Assembly: GCA_022821965.1 (NCBI GenBank)
Contig: JAJECN010000035.1
Coordinates: forward strand, 1-64,000
DNA: 64,000 nucleotides
Reading direction: 5' to 3'
DNA from: Candidatus Poribacteria bacterium
Lineage (GTDB): Bacteria > Poribacteria > WGA-4E > WGA-3G
Positions 10,115 to 56,308 of the stretch are shown piece after piece (the first letter of the stretch is position 1; each line of letters opens with the position of its first letter). Position numbers and translations under genes: made by a program. Under the pieces are notes generated by a model that saw nothing but the letters and a program-made list of their open reading frames with translations, searched no databases and was not told the DNA's origin.

Positions 10115-10138
10115 GTAGGCACGCTCCGTCGTGCCTAC
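10115..10138. repeat. GTAG/CTAC-bounded palindrome, copy 3
   Basis: GTAGGCACG, a 6-nt loop and CGTGCCTAC, starting 5 bp after the DUF1501 stop. It may serve as the 3' hairpin of that transcript. The stem resembles the copy at 42057-42083. Confidence 0.75.
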
Positions 10139-37055: not shown

Positions 37056-39059
37056 ATGATGAAGAAATGTTTGTCTTTACCCCTTATTGCGTTGGCACTA
37101 CTGGCGACGTTTATATTCGTTGGTTGCGGCGCGAAAGAGACACCCCCGACACCAGCTATCGCTGAAACACCACTCGTACAAGAATCGGACGAGAGCCACG
37201 AGGAACGGGAAGCTGTAGAACAGAAATCGGAAGAAACACACGAAGAATTACACGCCGCTGAAGAGGAAACGCATCGTGAAGCAGAACCTGAACAGATGAT
37301 GCCGATAGCAGAGATTCCGAGCAGCAGTGTTTTGCATCTGATACCACAACAAACATTTGGGATTGTCTATTGTCCGAGCTTGGCTGAATTAGACGATCGG
37401 GTTAATATGTTGGCAATGGACTTGATGCCAACCGCTGGAAATCCAGAGGTAATTGCCAAAATCTTGGCAGATACCTTCGGCGCAGGTTTTGAAAGTCTTG
37501 CCGAATTACAGGAAATTGGGCTGGATTTAGACCAAGATTTTGCAATCTTCATGACCTCCTTGACCCCACCTGATATCTCCGCAACCGTACATCTAACAGA
37601 TTCTGGAGCCATGAGACAGGTAATTGAGGCGGAAAGCGAAGGAACCCCCGCTACGGAATACAACGGCGTAAGCTATTGGAACGCGGCTGGAGGCGGTGGC
37701 AGCTTTGCTATCATAGATGACGTTCTCGTTTTCACTCGGTCTCCTGAGGTCTGCGAAAGCGTTATTGATACTTACAACGGAACGAAGCAGTCTATCACAA
37801 CAGATTCGGCTTACAGTTCGTTTCTCGGTGATGTTTCAGAAGGGAAAGCGCAACTCGCGGTGCACTTTGATTTTGCGTCAATTGCGCCTGCCTTGAGTAT
37901 TTCGATTGAAGAGCAGTCGGAATCAATAAAGGACGGTCTTGAAAGCGATCCCGCCGCTATGGCGGCAGCACCCTTTTTTGAGGGTATGTTCGCCACAGTG
38001 ATAGACACGCTTATGCAGCTGGAATCTCTAAGCGCGACGCTCGTAGTGGAAGGAACCGATGTACAACTCTCACCGTTCCTGAAATTCAAGAGCGATGGTA
38101 AAATTCAAAACGTGTTAAAAGAGATGGCTCCTAATGAATTAACACGCCTCGGTGAACTCCCAAGTCGAGCGTTTATGAATGGTGCTTTTCAAGGTAAACC
38201 CGAGTTGATGGTTCAGATGAGCATGTTCTGGCTAAAAATATTTTCACAAGACGCTGACCCCGAACAGGCTAAGATGCTTGAGTCGCTTGTTAAACAGTCA
38301 GAGGATTTTTATGAGGCTCTCGCTGAGGAATGGAGTTTCTCCGCTAATTTTGGCGATAGTCTCTTCCCCGACTATTTAATTGTCTATGGACTGAAAGACG
38401 AACAGAAGGCGAAAACCTATATGGAAGAGGAATTACTTAAACAACTCCAAACCGCAATGGAATTCGCTGAAAAGATGATAGGAGATGTTCCCAGTCTCAC
38501 CATGTACGAGGGCGCGTATCAAGGACACTCCACGATGCACAACGGCGTTGAGATCAAGAGTTACATCTTCCCTAACTTCGGTGCTGCCCTTGGAGAGATG
38601 CCGCCCGAAGCTGCTGGATTGATGCCTGATGAATGGCACTGGTACTATGCCTTTGCCAATGATCAATTGCTGATGGCTATCGGAAATCAGGAGTTAATAA
38701 CGATGAGTCTGGATAACAAAGCAGGGATTGATACTGGACCTCGTTTCTCTGGAGAGCCAAGTTATGAAAAATTGGTCGCGACCTTGGGACTGGAAAATAA
38801 CCTATTCTTAGCAATTTCGCCAATGACTATGGTTAAAGACCTCTTACCGATTATCGCGAAGATGTCAGATCCAAATACTGCTGCGGGGATGCAAATGATG
38901 TCCGGAATGTTTATGAACATGCCGGAAAATTACAGCTTCGGTTTATCTGCCAAAGTGCAGGAGGGCGGAATCGGCGCAACGCTGCTTCTCACGCTTGGGG
39001 ACTTTAAGCAGCTTCTCCAAATGGTTGCAATGATGCAAAGCATGGGGCAGATGCAATAA
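37056..39059 (+). CDS. Large lipoprotein of unknown function (DUF3352-like)
   Basis: About 667 residues from ATG 37056 (AGGAG 6 nt upstream; a TTG and a second ATG adjoin). Lipoprotein signal LIALALLATFIFVGCG. Residues 45-95 form a Glu-rich helical segment (EESHEEREAVEQKSEET-like). The rest alternates strands and helices (FGIVYCPSLAELD, SYWNAAGGGGSFAIIDDVLV) as in DUF3352 proteins. Many Met residues near the C-terminus. Anchored to a membrane, probably periplasm-facing. Function unknown. Confidence 0.8.
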   Translation: MMKKCLSLPLIALALLATFIFVGCGAKETPPTPAIAETPLVQESDESHEEREAVEQKSEETHEELHAAEEETHREAEPEQMMPIAEIPSSSVLHLIPQQTFGIVYCPSLAELDDRVNMLAMDLMPTAGNPEVIAKILADTFGAGFESLAELQEIGLDLDQDFAIFMTSLTPPDISATVHLTDSGAMRQVIEAESEGTPATEYNGVSYWNAAGGGGSFAIIDDVLVFTRSPEVCESVIDTYNGTKQSITTDSAYSSFLGDVSEGKAQLAVHFDFASIAPALSISIEEQSESIKDGLESDPAAMAAAPFFEGMFATVIDTLMQLESLSATLVVEGTDVQLSPFLKFKSDGKIQNVLKEMAPNELTRLGELPSRAFMNGAFQGKPELMVQMSMFWLKIFSQDADPEQAKMLESLVKQSEDFYEALAEEWSFSANFGDSLFPDYLIVYGLKDEQKAKTYMEEELLKQLQTAMEFAEKMIGDVPSLTMYEGAYQGHSTMHNGVEIKSYIFPNFGAALGEMPPEAAGLMPDEWHWYYAFANDQLLMAIGNQELITMSLDNKAGIDTGPRFSGEPSYEKLVATLGLENNLFLAISPMTMVKDLLPIIAKMSDPNTAAGMQMMSGMFMNMPENYSFGLSAKVQEGGIGATLLLTLGDFKQLLQMVAMMQSMGQMQ

Positions 39060-39069
39060 ATGCGTTTCT

Positions 39070-39108
39070 AACTCGCTCACAATCTGATTGTGGGCGAGTT
39101 TTTTATCA
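39070..39108 (+). terminator. Rho-independent terminator after the lipoprotein gene
   Basis: AACTCGCTCACAAT and ATTGTGGGCGAGTT pair with a CTG loop and one wobble, followed by TTTT. Confidence 0.88.
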
Positions 39109-39519
39109 GGATTAGTATAAAGACCGAAAATATGTTGACCTTCTGGTGAACAACAACCCCACAAATGCCGCTCCTTCGCTGGCGCGATTTGTAACTGGAG
39201 CCCACCCGTTACTGGGAAGCGGAAGGGCACTTATTTACAATGTTAAAGTAATAGCATTTTGATCGCATCCGTTCTACCTCGCCTACGCTACGATTTACAA
39301 GTTTTACAAGGACATTTATATATTTTTATTTTAATTAAAAAAAATATATCCTAACCTAACCGACGCTTAAACCCTGATACCCATTGACTTTATATCAATT
39401 TTAAAATTTGACCAAAAATGAGACTTTTGATAATATACATTTGTAACTTCTGTGAAAATGTGAAGTTTGTGAATGCCTTGTAATCAGTGGCAATCTATAG
39501 TTTTGACAATTTTCTGGCA
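39109..39519. other. Non-coding AT-rich region
   Basis: 411 bp between convergent transcripts, very A/T-rich from about 39300 to 39450. No open frame with a ribosome-binding site, no clear palindrome. Nothing recognised. Confidence 0.5.
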
Positions 39520-40461
39520 TCAACTGAGAACGGTAAGCGAAGCGTGCCGAATATCATTTAACTCCTCGGCACTGAAGACACCCGCCTGATAGAGGTTACG
39601 ATACTCTTCAGAAACGCTCTGACCGAATATCATTAGATCATCTGTGTTAATCGTCACCGGCACGCCGTTGTCAAACAAAACGCGGATAGGATGCGCGGCA
39701 AGCTCCGACACACCGTCCAACATCACATTGCTCGTTGGGCACACGTTCAACCGAATCTGATTCCCGGAAAGCCACTGCATGACTTCGGTCGATTCCGCGG
39801 CACCGATACCGTGTTGGACTTCGTCCAAGTCAAGAACTTTAACAGTTCGCCGAACCTCTTCTGCACCTCCGAACTCGCCAACATGTGCTTTCAGTTTCAT
39901 TTCTGCGGCGCGCGCTTTGGCATATAAGGATTGGACAGCTTCAGGCGCGCACGCTTCTTGATGGCTATACAGATCCATCGACTGAAATATGTCTAATTCT
40001 ATTGCTTCGTGTGCCGATTTCATCCATTTTGGGTCATTCGCACACTCTCGTGCAAAGCCAAGTTCTGGGCGCAAATCAACCTTCTCTCGATACCGCTCAA
40101 CTAACATTTCAATAAACGAACGAAGTTCAGTTAACCCATCCGGATAGAACTTAAGCAATCGGATGTCGAAACTCATCTCAAGCAGAACAACACCATCTTG
40201 GACCGCATCATCTATCGCCGAAGCAGCGATGAACTCAAAACCTTGGCGGTGTTCTAAGTGAGGTGCTAAGACCGCGTTCACGTATTCCATCATCCCCTCT
40301 AATCCTTTCATCTTGAGGGGCGGTTTGGTTAAAGGATAGCCCAGCCAACGTTCCGTATTTTCCCGGCGTGTGCTTAAGAAGGCGTGGGAATGAACGTCGG
40401 TTTTAGGGGCTGCCTTTATAGCCGTTAGATTATCTGTGGAAAGTGCTTTAACGAAATCCAT
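39520..40461 (-). CDS. Adenosine deaminase-family amidohydrolase, paralogue 1
   Basis: 313 residues from ATG 40461. Zinc-site motifs of the adenosine/AMP deaminase family: H24-S-H26 in TDVHSHAF, HVGEFGG, VQHGIGAAE, LNVCPTSNVML and TINTDDLMIFG. It would deaminate a purine nucleoside or related amine; the 'F' and 'R' substitutions around the entry loop prevent naming the substrate. Closely similar to the gene at 40994-41974; the last third is almost identical in DNA. Ends HASLTVLS. No strong ribosome-binding site; the GNAT stop is 40 bp upstream. Confidence 0.88.
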   Translation of the reverse strand: MDFVKALSTDNLTAIKAAPKTDVHSHAFLSTRRENTERWLGYPLTKPPLKMKGLEGMMEYVNAVLAPHLEHRQGFEFIAASAIDDAVQDGVVLLEMSFDIRLLKFYPDGLTELRSFIEMLVERYREKVDLRPELGFARECANDPKWMKSAHEAIELDIFQSMDLYSHQEACAPEAVQSLYAKARAAEMKLKAHVGEFGGAEEVRRTVKVLDLDEVQHGIGAAESTEVMQWLSGNQIRLNVCPTSNVMLDGVSELAAHPIRVLFDNGVPVTINTDDLMIFGQSVSEEYRNLYQAGVFSAEELNDIRHASLTVLS

Positions 40462-40501
40462 ATATAGTCCGTAACTATACTCAACTTTGAATCTACATAT
40501 T

Positions 40502-40990
40502 CTACGGTTTGTCCGATTTTTCCAGATTGATACAGAATATAGGAAGTTCACGGTTCGGAATACTTTCAGACTTCCGTGTACCGACCAGCAACCCGCCCGC
40601 TGAGCGATAAAATCGTTCAGCGTTCGGATCCCCCTGAATAATCATTTTACTGTATCCAAGCTGCCGCGCTTCTTCTTGTGCATGCGTTATTAACTTTCGA
40701 CCGTAGCCTTTTCCAATAAAATCCGGCTCAACAAATAGAAGACTCAACTCTACTTCGGCAGCAGAAATACGTTCTAAGGAATAGAACCCTACAGCGTTTC
40801 TTGCCGCTTCAATCACAAAAGTAGGATTGTTCTCAATATAGCACTTGTCAATAGTGAGTTCCTCAAGGCATGCCTGCATAAATCGGTCAGAATAACCCCA
40901 ATATGACTTAGAACGGAAGGCAAGTCCGCTCAAGTGCTCAACTTCACTCGGTAAAGCTTGTCGAATTTGCCATTCCTGTGTGTTAAACAC
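40502..40990 (-). CDS. GNAT-family N-acetyltransferase
   Basis: 162 residues from GTG 40990 (AGGAG 9 nt upstream). Acetyl-CoA binding motif A is VEPDFIGKGYGRKLITHAQEEA, followed by NAERFYRSAG. It lies between the two deaminase paralogues, 3 bp after the upstream stop, so it is in the same operon. Substrate unknown. Confidence 0.88.
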   Translation of the reverse strand: MFNTQEWQIRQALPSEVEHLSGLAFRSKSYWGYSDRFMQACLEELTIDKCYIENNPTFVIEAARNAVGFYSLERISAAEVELSLLFVEPDFIGKGYGRKLITHAQEEARQLGYSKMIIQGDPNAERFYRSAGGLLVGTRKSESIPNRELPIFCINLEKSDKP

Positions 40991-40993
40991 AGT

Positions 40994-41974
40994 TTATTTC
41001 TCCTTTATGTAAGGACGAGGTAACCTCGCCCCTACAGTCGCGAGGGATGCCCGCCGAATATCCTCTAATTCTTCGGCGCTGAAAACATCCGCTTGGTAGA
41101 GGTTCCGATACTCTTCAGAAACGCTCTGACCGAATATCATCAGGTCGTCTGTGTTAATCGTCACCGGCACGCCATTGTCAAACAAGACGCGGATAGGATG
41201 CGCGGCAAGCTCCGACACACCGTCCAGCATCACGTTGCTCGTTGGACACACATTCAACTGAATCTGATGCTCCGAAAGCCACCGCATGATTTCAACCGAT
41301 TCCGCGGCAGCGATACCGTGTTGGACCTCGTCCAAATCAAGGACTTCGACTGTCCGTCGGATTTCCTCAGCGTCTTCAAATTCTCCGACATGTGCTTTCA
41401 GTTTCATTCCGGCTGCGCGTGCTTTTGTAAACAACGGTTTCATAACCTCTGGCGGACACACCTCTTGACGGCTATACAAATCAATCGACTGGAAAAAACC
41501 TAATTCCACCGTTTCGTGTGCTAACGCCATCAGTTTTGGGTCGTCAGCACACCCACGTGAAAAGCCCAATTCTGGACGCAAATCCACCTGTGCCTTATAC
41601 CGCTCAACCAACGCTTCAATAAACGCGCAAAGCTCCTTTATCCCATTGGGATAGAACTCCGCCAGTCGGATGTCAAAACTCATTTCAAGCAGAACAACAC
41701 CATCTTGAACCGCATCGTCCATCGCCGCCCCTGCAACGAACTCGAAACCTTCTCGATGTTTGATGTGAGGTGCTAAAACCGCGTCGGCGTATGCCATCAT
41801 CCCCTCAACCCCTTTCATTTTAAGAGGCGGTTCGGTTAGGGAATGCCCCACCCAACGTTCCACACTCTCTCGTCGTGCACTGAAGAACGCATGGCAGTGA
41901 ACGTCAGTTTTAGGAGATGCTTTTATAGCCGTTAAGTTATCTGTGGAGAGTGCTTCAATGAAATCAATAGACAT
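40994..41974 (-). CDS. Adenosine deaminase-family amidohydrolase, paralogue 2 with repeat-derived C-terminus
   Basis: 326 residues from ATG 41974 (TTG 41983 also in frame). H25-C-H27 in TDVHCHAF, HVGEFED, VQHGIAAAE, NVCPTSN and INTDDLMIF are kept. Compared with paralogue 1, which stops at HASLTVLS, it continues ATVGARLPRPYIKEK. The added VGARLPRPY is encoded by the GTAG/CTAC palindrome at 41009-41035. The first two thirds differ more between the paralogues than the last third. First gene of a deaminase-GNAT-deaminase unit. Confidence 0.87.
   Translation of the reverse strand: MSIDFIEALSTDNLTAIKASPKTDVHCHAFFSARRESVERWVGHSLTEPPLKMKGVEGMMAYADAVLAPHIKHREGFEFVAGAAMDDAVQDGVVLLEMSFDIRLAEFYPNGIKELCAFIEALVERYKAQVDLRPELGFSRGCADDPKLMALAHETVELGFFQSIDLYSRQEVCPPEVMKPLFTKARAAGMKLKAHVGEFEDAEEIRRTVEVLDLDEVQHGIAAAESVEIMRWLSEHQIQLNVCPTSNVMLDGVSELAAHPIRVLFDNGVPVTINTDDLMIFGQSVSEEYRNLYQADVFSAEELEDIRRASLATVGARLPRPYIKEK
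41009..41035. repeat. GTAG/CTAC-bounded palindrome, copy 6, inside a coding region
   Basis: 27 bp reading, on the plus strand, GTAAGGACGAGG-TAA-CCTCGCCCCTAC. 25 of 27 bases match the copy at 56282-56308. Read on the minus strand it supplies the C-terminal codons of deaminase paralogue 2. Confidence 0.8.
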
Positions 41975-42056
41975 AATACCCAATTATACTCTACTGGTGG
42001 ATGGGGCGAGGTTAGGAAATCTCGCCAGAAAAAGGACGTGAATTTACATGCTCAAA

Positions 42057-42106
42057 CCATGGCACACGGCGTGTGCCTGCTACTTTAAAGATGGGCGATG
42101 TCGCCC
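42057..42106. repeat. Paired palindromes at the ydcF-like 3' end, GTAG-headed on the minus strand
   Basis: On the minus strand GTAGCA is followed by GGCACACG-C-CGTGTGCC (42061-42077), the stem type of the copy at 10115. The adjacent GGGCGA-TG-TCGCCC (42093-42106 on plus) lies within the last codons of the YdcF-like gene. A further decayed GGCGAGG...CTCGCC pair lies at about 42004-42026. Confidence 0.6.
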
Positions 42107-42711
42107 CGCCTTGTATATTCGATGACACGCAGGTATTCACCGTACACGCGACCTCTCGATACTTCGTGCTGATACCAATCTTCTTTGGATATTTTGACAC
42201 CTTCATATTCAGCAAGATATGTGACAGGCGAAAGTATTTGAGAAGGGAAGAATTTCCGCAAGGTTCGCAGGCAGCGACCGCTATGGTGCGCCTTGCATAG
42301 AAATGCGATACTATCGGGTGAAATGCTATACTTTTCTAAGACATCAAGGCTGAAGGTAACATCCTCAAGCGTGTTCGTTGATCTGTCCTGAACGAGGATT
42401 ACCTCTGATGGAACACCGCGGGCTATGAGTTCATCACGCATTATATGTGCTACAGGTTTGCCTGTTTCGGAATAGAGTCGTCCACTCAAACCGGTGACCA
42501 TGACTTTTGGAAAGCGACCTTTTTGATAATCACGCGCCACAGATTCTAAAATTTCATTATCAATAGTGGAAGTCCCAAAGATAAAAAGGAGATCAACTGG
42601 TTGGGACTCAGGCGCGACAAACACGGTTTGCGTGATGCGCTCAATCTCCTCTGGTGACAAATTTTCCACCGCAACTTCTCTCGGAATGGAACGATTCTTG
42701 AAATCACTCAT
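42085..42711 (-). CDS. YdcF/DUF218-like protein
   Basis: 208 residues. DUF218 motifs: DLLFIFGTSTIDNEI, GRFPKVMVTGLSGRLYSETG, RDELIARGVPSEVILVQDRSTNT and LEDVTFSLDVL. The family is implicated in envelope or vancomycin-sensitivity phenotypes (SanA/ElyC relatives), but this one has no membrane anchor, as for E. coli YdcF. Start ATG 42711 directly abuts the GNAT stop. The C-terminal RRGDIAHL is encoded within a palindrome. Confidence 0.85.
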   Translation of the reverse strand: MSDFKNRSIPREVAVENLSPEEIERITQTVFVAPESQPVDLLFIFGTSTIDNEILESVARDYQKGRFPKVMVTGLSGRLYSETGKPVAHIMRDELIARGVPSEVILVQDRSTNTLEDVTFSLDVLEKYSISPDSIAFLCKAHHSGRCLRTLRKFFPSQILSPVTYLAEYEGVKISKEDWYQHEVSRGRVYGEYLRVIEYTRRGDIAHL

Positions 42712-43164
42712 CTACTCACTCAATTTAGGTAACTTTTCCATCTGGAAGTATATCGAATCTTCACCGACGATTGTGAATCCCAACCGTTCATAGAGGTCAA
42801 TACCACGGGTATTGACCTTTAGGACTTGAAGCTCCACAGATCTCTGCTCAAGGTTGGCATTATCAATAATACGGGTCATGCACGCGGAACCGATGCCTCT
42901 CCCCTGATATTCAGGAAGAATAAAGATCTGATTGACTTTGAGCGTGTCGGAAGTAGAAGATGTTATGAAGAAACCGACATCAGTTTCACAAAATTGGATA
43001 ATGTGAAAATCGTGCGAAGCGAACTCTTTATTATGTCGTTCCCATTGATAATTATCATCCCAACCCCAGACCTGTTCTACATACTCCCTATATGCCGCCT
43101 TCTTTACCGTAAAAATGAATTCGCTGTCGCTGGCACGTGCCTTGCGAATACTCAACGCCTCCAC
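42712..43164 (-). CDS. GNAT-family N-acetyltransferase
   Basis: 150 residues from GTG 43164 (purine-rich GGTGGGGG upstream). Motif A: IFILPEYQGRGIGSACMTRI; C-terminal NTRGIDLYERLGFTIVGED. No gap to the downstream YdcF-like gene, so co-transcribed. Distinct from the GNAT at 40502. Substrate unknown. Confidence 0.88.
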   Translation of the reverse strand: MEALSIRKARASDSEFIFTVKKAAYREYVEQVWGWDDNYQWERHNKEFASHDFHIIQFCETDVGFFITSSTSDTLKVNQIFILPEYQGRGIGSACMTRIIDNANLEQRSVELQVLKVNTRGIDLYERLGFTIVGEDSIYFQMEKLPKLSE

Positions 43165-43187
43165 AGTAAAACCCCCACCTTCTTTCC

Positions 43188-43961
43188 CTACATTTCTTTC
43201 TTCGCAACAACGGCAAAACTTACATTGTAAGCCATTTCATGTGCCCAACTTCCCGGTGTAGCCTCAATATCTGGCTGCGTCCAAGCACGTTCCTCAACCC
43301 GCTCAATCCGAAAATCGTTGTCCACAAGTCCATTGAATATATCACTCAAATAGTGTCGAAAATCAAATGCACCGTCTGAATACCTGAAAACACGTTCAGA
43401 ATAAGGTTCGGTGACGCGATAGTATTCACCATCCCATTCCCAAAAATGATTGGCAGGATTGCCGAAATCTACACGATAGTGACCACCGGGGCGGATGATT
43501 CTCGACACGCCTCTATAGATTTCATGAACGGATGGCACCCAACTCATCGAAGGTCCTTGATAGACGAGGTCATACGAAGCCTCTTCAATTGCGGACAAAT
43601 CCCGGATGTTGGCGCAAATTGTCTCGACTGGATAGCCATAATGCTTCGCAGCAGTAATATCTCCGTCAAGCTGACCCTGCGTAAAGTCAATAACGGTTAC
43701 ACGGGCATCAAGCAAACCGAACACCGCAGACTGCTGTCCGCCGCCTGCAGCGAGACACAGCACGTCCTTGTCGGCAACGTCTCTGAGTAGGTAAGCAGGG
43801 TAGATTTGATAGAGGTGATACGGGACTGGATCGAGCTGATCCTCAGCATATCTCAGAATATCGTCTTTATCAAGGTCAAGCCACGGCACGGTAAAGCCGT
43901 TCTTTTTCACGACTTCGGCTTCCCAATGTGTTCGATTAGCAATCGTGATTTCGTCATTCAT
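43188..43961 (-). CDS. Class I SAM-dependent methyltransferase
   Basis: 257 residues from ATG 43961, in an ATGA overlap with the upstream dehydratase; the ATG at 43982 is less likely. Motif I is VLCLAAGGGQQSAVFGLL, then VTVIDFTQGQL, an acidic CANIRDLS and the post-II LVYQGPSMSWV, then IIRPGGHYRVDFGNP. Cytoplasmic small-molecule methyltransferase; the acceptor cannot be read. Confidence 0.87.
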   Translation of the reverse strand: MNDEITIANRTHWEAEVVKKNGFTVPWLDLDKDDILRYAEDQLDPVPYHLYQIYPAYLLRDVADKDVLCLAAGGGQQSAVFGLLDARVTVIDFTQGQLDGDITAAKHYGYPVETICANIRDLSAIEEASYDLVYQGPSMSWVPSVHEIYRGVSRIIRPGGHYRVDFGNPANHFWEWDGEYYRVTEPYSERVFRYSDGAFDFRHYLSDIFNGLVDNDFRIERVEERAWTQPDIEATPGSWAHEMAYNVSFAVVAKKEM

Positions 43962-54752: not shown

Positions 54753-56285
54753 GTGAATTCAAACACCGTTCACACACTTGACCCCGGCACAGAACTGTTC
54801 GTTGATGACATGCTGATTGCTTCAAAGCAAGGCGTGACACGCACACTACATCAGGGCGTGAAGCACGATGTCCCCGTTCTTGAACCAGATCCCGATAACC
54901 CGTGGGAACACGGCGGACCCGACCAGTCCAGGCGCGTACACCTCTACGGCACCACGATGTACGATGCGGCGTACGGGAAATACCGCATGTGGTATATGTG
55001 TCGTATGGGACCGCACTGGCGATTTGAAGCGAACGAGATTCCGGGACTTTACGTCCCACGTACTGATCGAAATCCGTCAACATATAGGGGAAAGACACAC
55101 GATGCTTACGGACGAAAGTTCGTCGAAAACGACCGCGGCGACCTTACCTGCTACGCAGAAAGCGATGATGGATTGACGTGGACGAAACCGAACCTTGGTC
55201 TCTTTGAATTCAACGGAAACCCAAACAACAATATCGTGTGGGACCTCCACGGTGCCTGTGTCTTCCGCGATGACGACGAATCGGATCCGCAGAGACGGTA
55301 TAAGATGATCGGTTTTTGTAGACGGTATCGCAACATCTTCCTGCTCATGTCACCCGATGGCATCCGATGGGACGACTCAGATTTCCTCAAACCGATTGCG
55401 GATCGGGACAACGAAGGCGCGTTCAATGTCATCTACGATAAAAAAACAGATCTATTCCGAGCCTATGCCCTCATACGTGGTGACGATAAAGACGCAAGAC
55501 GTATGATCGCATACACCGAAAGCCAGCGTCTTGAAGGACCCTGGAAACCGCTCGAACCGATGTTCGGTGCCACGGATGAAGACGACGCAGTTGGTATACA
55601 GAGATACGGTGCTGACCGTGCCGAAATCCACAATATGTCTGGCTTCCTCTATCATAACATCTACATCGGTATCCCCGGTGTGTTATATGTGACGGGACCA
55701 GGTGCAGCAGAACATGAGATTCCTATCGATGGACCGATTGATGCACAACTTGTTAGCAGCCGAGACGGATTTAATTGGGACTATCCCGATGCCAACCGAA
55801 CCCCGATTATCCCACGTGGTGAGAGCGGCACATTCGACACCGGTATGATTATGGGAACCGCTATAGAACCGATCATCACCGACGATGAAATTCACTGGTA
55901 CTATACAGGGACAGAACATACCCACGGTGCCCAGATGAAAGATAGACACAAAGCGATCGGGCTTGCGAAGTGGCGATTAGACGGTTTCGTCTCGCTTGAT
56001 GCCGAGGTGGAGGAAGGGGTCGTTGAAACCGTCCCATTGCAGCTTCCGAACGGAGGGCTTGAAATTAACGCGGATGCGAGTGGCGGCCAGGTCGGTGTTG
56101 AAGTGTTAACCGCTGATGGACAGGTTCAACAAGGATTTTCGATTGATGATTGTGTCCCGTTGACAGGAGATAATGTCCGACACCCAGTGCGATGGAAGTC
56201 GGCGACATTAGCGGATACCACACAACCCCTGCGACTCCGTTTTGTCCTGAACCGTGCCAGACTTTACGCCTTCCGTATCGAGTAG
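54753..56285 (+). CDS. Five-bladed-propeller glycoside-hydrolase-like protein
   Basis: 510 residues from GTG 54753 (GAGGA 8 nt upstream). The start LDPGTELFVDDMLIAS and repeats such as YRMWYMCRMG, CYAESDDGLTWTKPN and YKMIGFCRRY, then SPDGIRWDDSD, show the GH32/43/68-like propeller seen in many planctomycete and poribacterial genes. The C-terminal 120 residues form a sandwich (EINADASGGQVGVEVLTADG). No signal peptide. Catalytic acids cannot be assigned. The stop TAG is formed by the GTAG head of the next palindrome. Confidence 0.8.
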   Translation: MNSNTVHTLDPGTELFVDDMLIASKQGVTRTLHQGVKHDVPVLEPDPDNPWEHGGPDQSRRVHLYGTTMYDAAYGKYRMWYMCRMGPHWRFEANEIPGLYVPRTDRNPSTYRGKTHDAYGRKFVENDRGDLTCYAESDDGLTWTKPNLGLFEFNGNPNNNIVWDLHGACVFRDDDESDPQRRYKMIGFCRRYRNIFLLMSPDGIRWDDSDFLKPIADRDNEGAFNVIYDKKTDLFRAYALIRGDDKDARRMIAYTESQRLEGPWKPLEPMFGATDEDDAVGIQRYGADRAEIHNMSGFLYHNIYIGIPGVLYVTGPGAAEHEIPIDGPIDAQLVSSRDGFNWDYPDANRTPIIPRGESGTFDTGMIMGTAIEPIITDDEIHWYYTGTEHTHGAQMKDRHKAIGLAKWRLDGFVSLDAEVEEGVVETVPLQLPNGGLEINADASGGQVGVEVLTADGQVQQGFSIDDCVPLTGDNVRHPVRWKSATLADTTQPLRLRFVLNRARLYAFRIE

Positions 56286-56308
56286 GGACGAGGTCACCTC
56301 GCCCCTAC
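56282..56308. repeat. GTAG/CTAC-bounded palindrome, copy 9, supplying a stop codon
   Basis: GTAGGGACGAGG-TCA-CCTCGCCCCTAC. Bases 56283-56285 are the TAG stop of the preceding gene. 25 of 27 bases match the copy at 41009-41035. Confidence 0.8.

Follow-up and report, generated by a model that had tools for sequence, protein, structure and literature searches.

The window, a stretch of 64,000 nucleotides from a sponge-associated bacterium, carries an adenosine-deaminase-like gene on its minus strand (paralogue 2; 40994-41983; Pfam PF00962, E 3e-33), which is matched by the NCBIfam adenosine deaminase models below their cut-offs. It is followed by a GNAT acetyltransferase gene (40502-40990, minus strand; Pfam and ORF reading) whose GTG start lies 3 nt past the deaminase stop, and beyond that by a second deaminase gene, paralogue 1 (39520-40551, minus strand; ORF reading and Pfam), which has no repeat and ends in RHASLTVLS*. 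The C-terminus of paralogue 2 consists of a GTAG-type palindromic repeat of 27 bp (41009-41035, minus strand; sequence, consensus scan and RNA fold) that reads VGARLPRPY in the deaminase frame. The protein ends in RRASLATVGARLPRPYIKEK*, and its C-terminal region with the tail lies within ATVGARLPRPYIKEK; given the open frame, the repeat is probably translated. The last codons and the stop (40994-41008, minus strand; read from the sequence) encode IKEK and contain AAGGAG, the probable ribosome-binding site for the GNAT start. An earlier note on this DNA had correctly given the SLTVLS end of paralogue 1 and the reading of paralogue 2 through the repeat, but had placed the stop six codons further on, where in fact four codons (IKEK) precede it.

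A scan of positions 38500-43500 against Rfam gave no match. Just upstream of the deaminase lie two more short palindromes that belong to different types (42005-42026 and 42061-42077), and the end of a 208-codon gene finishing at 42085 also seems to be a short palindrome (RRGDIAHL).

Within 3 mismatches of the consensus GTAGGGGCGAGGTNNCCTCGCCCCTAC, the window holds only the copy at 41009-41035 and a second one at 56282-56308 (plus strand; consensus scan), and 100 shuffles gave no match. These copies depart from the palindromic consensus by two and one mismatches, respectively, and differ from each other at two bases, as previously stated. In the whole source genome (G000), 20 copies were found at up to 3 mismatches, and a control pattern read backwards found none. 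At up to 2 mismatches, copies were present in 40 of 60 related genomes, mostly of the same genus, with up to 33 per strand. The consensus is a near-perfect palindrome that starts with GTAG on both strands; in the deaminase copy, the minus strand carries GTAG but the plus strand GTAA. As RNA, the repeat is predicted to form a stem of 13 bp if the outer U-A pair is included (-19.2 kcal/mol, z -3.80). It thus shares with GTAG-type REPs a stem-loop palindrome of 20-40 bp, a terminal GTAG and many dispersed copies, although the 20 copies of G000 are fewer than the more than 100 per genome given as usual for REPs in the abstract of PMC2817692. The deaminase repeat therefore belongs to a dispersed family of GTAG-tagged, palindromic (REP-like) repeats of Poribacteria. 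A GTAG...CTAC palindrome of another family was seen at 10115-10138, 6 nt past the stop of a 479-codon gene.

Homologues of the deaminase were gathered from 60 genomes (42 with a match), from named assemblies and from 38 genomes of the genus (35 with a match, at a stricter cut-off). The named assemblies contributed 59 loci, which by name were 47 from Poribacteria, 11 of Chloroflexota type and one from Ignavibacteriae. The nearer relatives of the deaminase belong to Candidatus Poribacteria assembled from metagenomes. When the orthologues were aligned, the full tail was found in seven of 76 distinct homologues (G000, G002, G003, G006, G008, G018 and G020), all of them with the palindrome. The contrary case that the earlier note had named, a palindrome-less orthologue with a VGARLPRPY-like tail, did not appear among the 76 sequences, those of Chloroflexota and Ignavibacteriae included, one end (L042) being unreadable because it is masked by Ns. 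An eighth palindrome-bearing deaminase locus was found in G014 on a contig fragment. An insertion peculiar to the source genome was rejected, as the event is old and common to eight genomes of the genus.

Two or three further homologues showed an eroded or possible half palindrome together with shortened tails (SLATVGAR*, SLATVVPT* and SLEKVPHPYNP*). In G017 the palindrome carries a stop in its loop and the protein ends in SLATVGAR*; in G015, 16 bp of the palindrome were lost and the end is SLATVVPT*; the deaminase of G033 may hold half a palindrome. One locus (L068) had been classed as eroded, but judging by its DNA it seems to have undergone a deletion that reaches into the GNAT gene. Other palindromes seem to fill the same deaminase end in G013 (L030, SLVGVTAQSR*), G035 (L039, SLVGATSRSR*) and perhaps G022 (L061, VRGVSNPDN).

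The state before insertion could be observed in the GNAT-linked, repeat-less relatives G011, G023, G019, G024 and G032. The empty junction reads GCACCT TAG CCAATTATG TAAAGGAG in G011 and GCGCCT TAG CAAACCGTG TAAAGGAG in G023, and the filled junction of G006 reads GCGCCT GTAGGGGCGAGGTTACCTCGTCCATACA TAAAGGAG. The CCT ahead of the repeat is retained in G006 and G020, and about 28 bp (the repeat plus an outer A) stand in place of about 12 bp that hold the native TAG stop. All full copies agree in the orientation of the centre (GGTT[A/C]CC), in both breakpoints, in their off-by-one register and in the leader of the gene that follows. These relatives support the earlier proposal that an insertion at the gene end altered a protein. 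Paralogue 1, which the earlier note had used as the repeat-less form, was rejected as the pre-insertion state because its 3' flank is different and it belongs to another clade of the deaminase tree.

As the breakpoints are common to the filled copies, we favour, with a probability of roughly 0.87, a single ancestral insertion of a GTAG repeat at the deaminase/GNAT junction, in which the native stop was replaced and the repeat came to be read through as a tail. This one insertion would go back to an ancestor shared by several species of the genus and would have removed about 12 bp including the native TAG. Its own TAG would end the deaminase if it were in register, but placed one base off it would be read through as VGARLPRPY, and reading would then continue over the GNAT ribosome-binding site (IKE followed by K, E or R) until a stop is reached 3 nt ahead of the GNAT start. 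That the tail is instead ancestral, the palindrome having arisen by mutation within a coding end, would agree with the variable length of the deaminase C-terminus in the family, but similar tails are missing outside the filled set, Chloroflexota and Ignavibacteriae relatives included, and the same palindrome is dispersed elsewhere, so that this origin appears extremely improbable.

The deaminase tree does not follow the distribution of the repeat in a simple manner. One supported clade, of ten rows, contains six filled genes, whereas the gene of the window falls in another, among genes mostly without the repeat. As the filled genes are split over two clades, a single origin requires that tandem paralogues recombined or that transfer took place. 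The simplest reading of this conflict is that tandem paralogues, which adjoin here, exchanged their gene bodies. The same split could also be produced if the repeat had entered the deaminase end independently in several lineages, the junction being a hotspot, and the other palindromes at the same gene end in G035, G013 and perhaps G022, as well as the patchy filling of two other gene ends (L008 and L016, below), point in that direction. However, repeated entry would have to reproduce in every full copy the centre orientation, breakpoints, off-by-one register and next-gene leader, and we consider it unlikely.

The repeat changes slowly. Among the seven filled genes the repeat differs by 4.6% compared to 34% at their 4-fold sites, that is, it changes about seven times more slowly than the surrounding synonymous sites, and the five GNAT neighbours of filled genes differ by 23%. 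The ratio of repeat to 4-fold divergence was 0.13 for the deaminase and 0.26, 0.16, 0.59 and 0.38 for other loci; in the L005 set one of 17 rows (L279) is blank at a contig end, which lowers the repeat mean somewhat, and in the L008 set two members (L235 and L249) hold a shorter copy read out of phase. That synonymous and other positions alike change slowly suggests maintenance of the palindrome itself, through selection on the hairpin or conversion between copies. The slow change could also be explained by ectopic gene conversion or by selection acting on the peptide, and the conserved entity would appear to be the hairpin rather than the peptide.

In the AlphaFold prediction (29 sequences; 327 residues submitted), the fold was confident, with a mean pLDDT of 91, and the tail (residues 318-327) fell below 50. 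The tail encoded by the repeat would most likely be a harmless or neutral disordered extension. At the nucleotide level, the distance from the deaminase stop to the GNAT start was 3 nt in all five filled genes with an intact GNAT gene in the locus, whereas of seven empty relatives six had 14 or 26 nt and one (L053) had 3 nt by its sequence; for L068 this distance is mis-set by the deletion. From this arrangement, coupled translation of the deaminase and GNAT genes is possible. The repeat could be imagined as a hairpin conserved for a regulatory role in the deaminase-GNAT transcript, its reading as protein being incidental or selected for coupling to GNAT. The predicted fold of -19.2 kcal/mol, the 3-nt spacing of the filled genes against the longer spacing of most empty ones, and the finding that only one of the six 4-fold sites of the tail varies in the seven genes, against an average of 34% in the gene body, would all agree with such a role. 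Nevertheless, the deaminase is kept in relatives with eroded copies (G015 and G017) or with no copy, and conversion between copies could equally hold the sequence constant; a regulatory function is a possibility to which we give less than even odds.

Copies of the same family were also found at the ends of other genes. The second copy of the window had been described as intergenic, which is not entirely so, as a 499-codon ORF (54786-56285, plus strand; ORF reading and genus comparison) stops at the TAG of this copy (56283-56285). In 33 of 36 genomes of the genus, its own among them, matches of at least 87% identity to this gene have the same end point or one no more than a few codons away. The orthologues of G010, G025 and G029, which lack the repeat, have their TAG stop at this very codon. 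In G008 the stop of this gene was lost and the repeat is now read as a tail, QQRRGDLASTLET. In four genes other than the deaminase, the GTAG of the repeat lies over a native stop: the 499-codon gene and three genes of the same genome, L008 (a protein weakly like hydroxypyruvate isomerase), L005 (a TolB-like propeller) and L016 (uncharacterised). The family matches of these three are below cut-off, and each of them has both empty and filled relatives, and in all four genes the empty orthologues stop at or near the same codon. At L016 (G000:C32:80220), two convergent ORFs both finish within the repeat: one stops at the repeat's TAG, the second at a TAA of the loop.

It was considered whether the GTAG merely represents a target present before insertion. 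This was weakened by L016, where empty sites have ATT followed by TAG or TAA and filled sites have ATG TAG, so that the G arrives with the repeat. The last residue is thereby changed from Ile to Met (ATG) in eight of eight filled copies and in none of 22 empty ones; a regular-expression count gives 7/7 versus 1/23, in which the single exception (L298) is itself a filled copy.

The position of the repeats relative to gene ends was analysed at 76 places, a convenience sample from seven genomes comprising all 20 copies of G000, all six of G004 and part of those of G005, G006, G014, G017 and G026. Among 34 gene ends located between -56 and +42, 11 had their stop on the repeat TAG. When orthologous loci were merged by eye, about seven of 28 ends lay at the repeat TAG (P 1e-8 versus a flat spread over 99 positions). 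Of ten merged ends at or past the repeat start, seven were in the stop register in a three-register test (P 0.02), which is small and partly circular. An ORF ended at the repeat TAG in seven places under a strict coding filter and in 11 under a looser one, and in 23 strand-registers ORF-like sequence ran in frame into the repeat (16 in the xGT/AGG register and 7 in GTA), so that under the stricter filter (7 stop, 7 GTA and 16 xGT/AGG) the stop register was not favoured overall. Tentatively, GTAG repeats may insert preferentially on native stops, laying their own GTAG over the N-TAG of the host and so sparing the gene. A slip of one base, as proposed for the deaminase, or a later loss of the stop, as in the 499-codon gene of G008, would then turn a repeat placed on a stop into a tail.

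Repeats inside genes were compared with orthologues in two cases. The transketolase gene of the source genome (L013/L014, G000:C12) has two copies in frame, located in a variable linker between conserved blocks; they are missing from most relatives, and G001 and G008 match one of the two. In the L126 gene (G000:C34), one in-frame copy occupies a variable linker, in which other relatives have peptides resembling other palindromes, for example VVGAGLPRPYGGD in G016.

Regarding the agent of mobility, two proteins of the source genome match the RAYT model NF047646 with 199.9 and 124.9 bits (cut-off 80). Both of their genes lie at one locus (L320, G000:C57:369000-378852), which has no copy of the repeat close by. 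In 12 stretches around Y1_Tnp/RAYT genes of seven genomes, no copy of the repeat was found within 5 mismatches. Of the two features of a REPtron, the genome has a RAYT gene, but the same repeat does not flank the RAYT genes in those 12 stretches. A RAYT-type transposase would nonetheless be the presumable mobiliser of the repeat. The likeness to the RAYT/TnpA-REP systems (PMC8266576, PMC2817692) lies in the GTAG tag and in the RAYT genes of the same genome, and the difference in that here no repeat copy stands beside the RAYT genes examined.

The results document clearly, through relatives from before and after the event, how a tiny dispersed palindrome rewrote the end of a protein. In the same genomes, other members of this repeat family end genes exactly at the stop codon or occupy linkers within proteins. 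Because copies of one family end genes at stops, aiming at stop codons by REP-like elements can be tested in Poribacteria through comparative genomics.

Stops at gene ends and fused tails derived from repeats have already been described (Di Nocera et al., 2013; Delihas, 2007). GTAG REPs are palindromes of 20-40 bp tagged with GTAG, whose ends often provide the TAG at which adjacent ORFs stop (Di Nocera et al., 2013, PMC3733652), and the Poribacteria repeat resembles them as a GTAG-tagged palindrome that provides TAG stops for ORFs. It differs in being near-symmetric, with GTAG on both strands, in its low copy number and in that the states before and after insertion are resolved; a term search of PMC3733652 found no mention of Poribacteria. 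In enterobacteria, an amidase gene with an RU-1 element at its 3' end has lost its normal stop to the element and encodes a longer C-terminus (Delihas, 2007, PMC2759123). There too, a small mobile repeat took out a stop and encodes a C-terminus, although RU-1 is a 127-bp MITE-like unit and not a GTAG palindrome. Rickettsia palindromic elements likewise lie in frame within protein genes, as do the two copies in transketolase and the one in L126, but they are 105-146 bp long according to the review by Delihas, compared to 27 bp here. What is new with respect to these systems is the resolution by orthologues of the states before and after insertion, the slowly changing repeat and a hint that repeats are laid on native stops.
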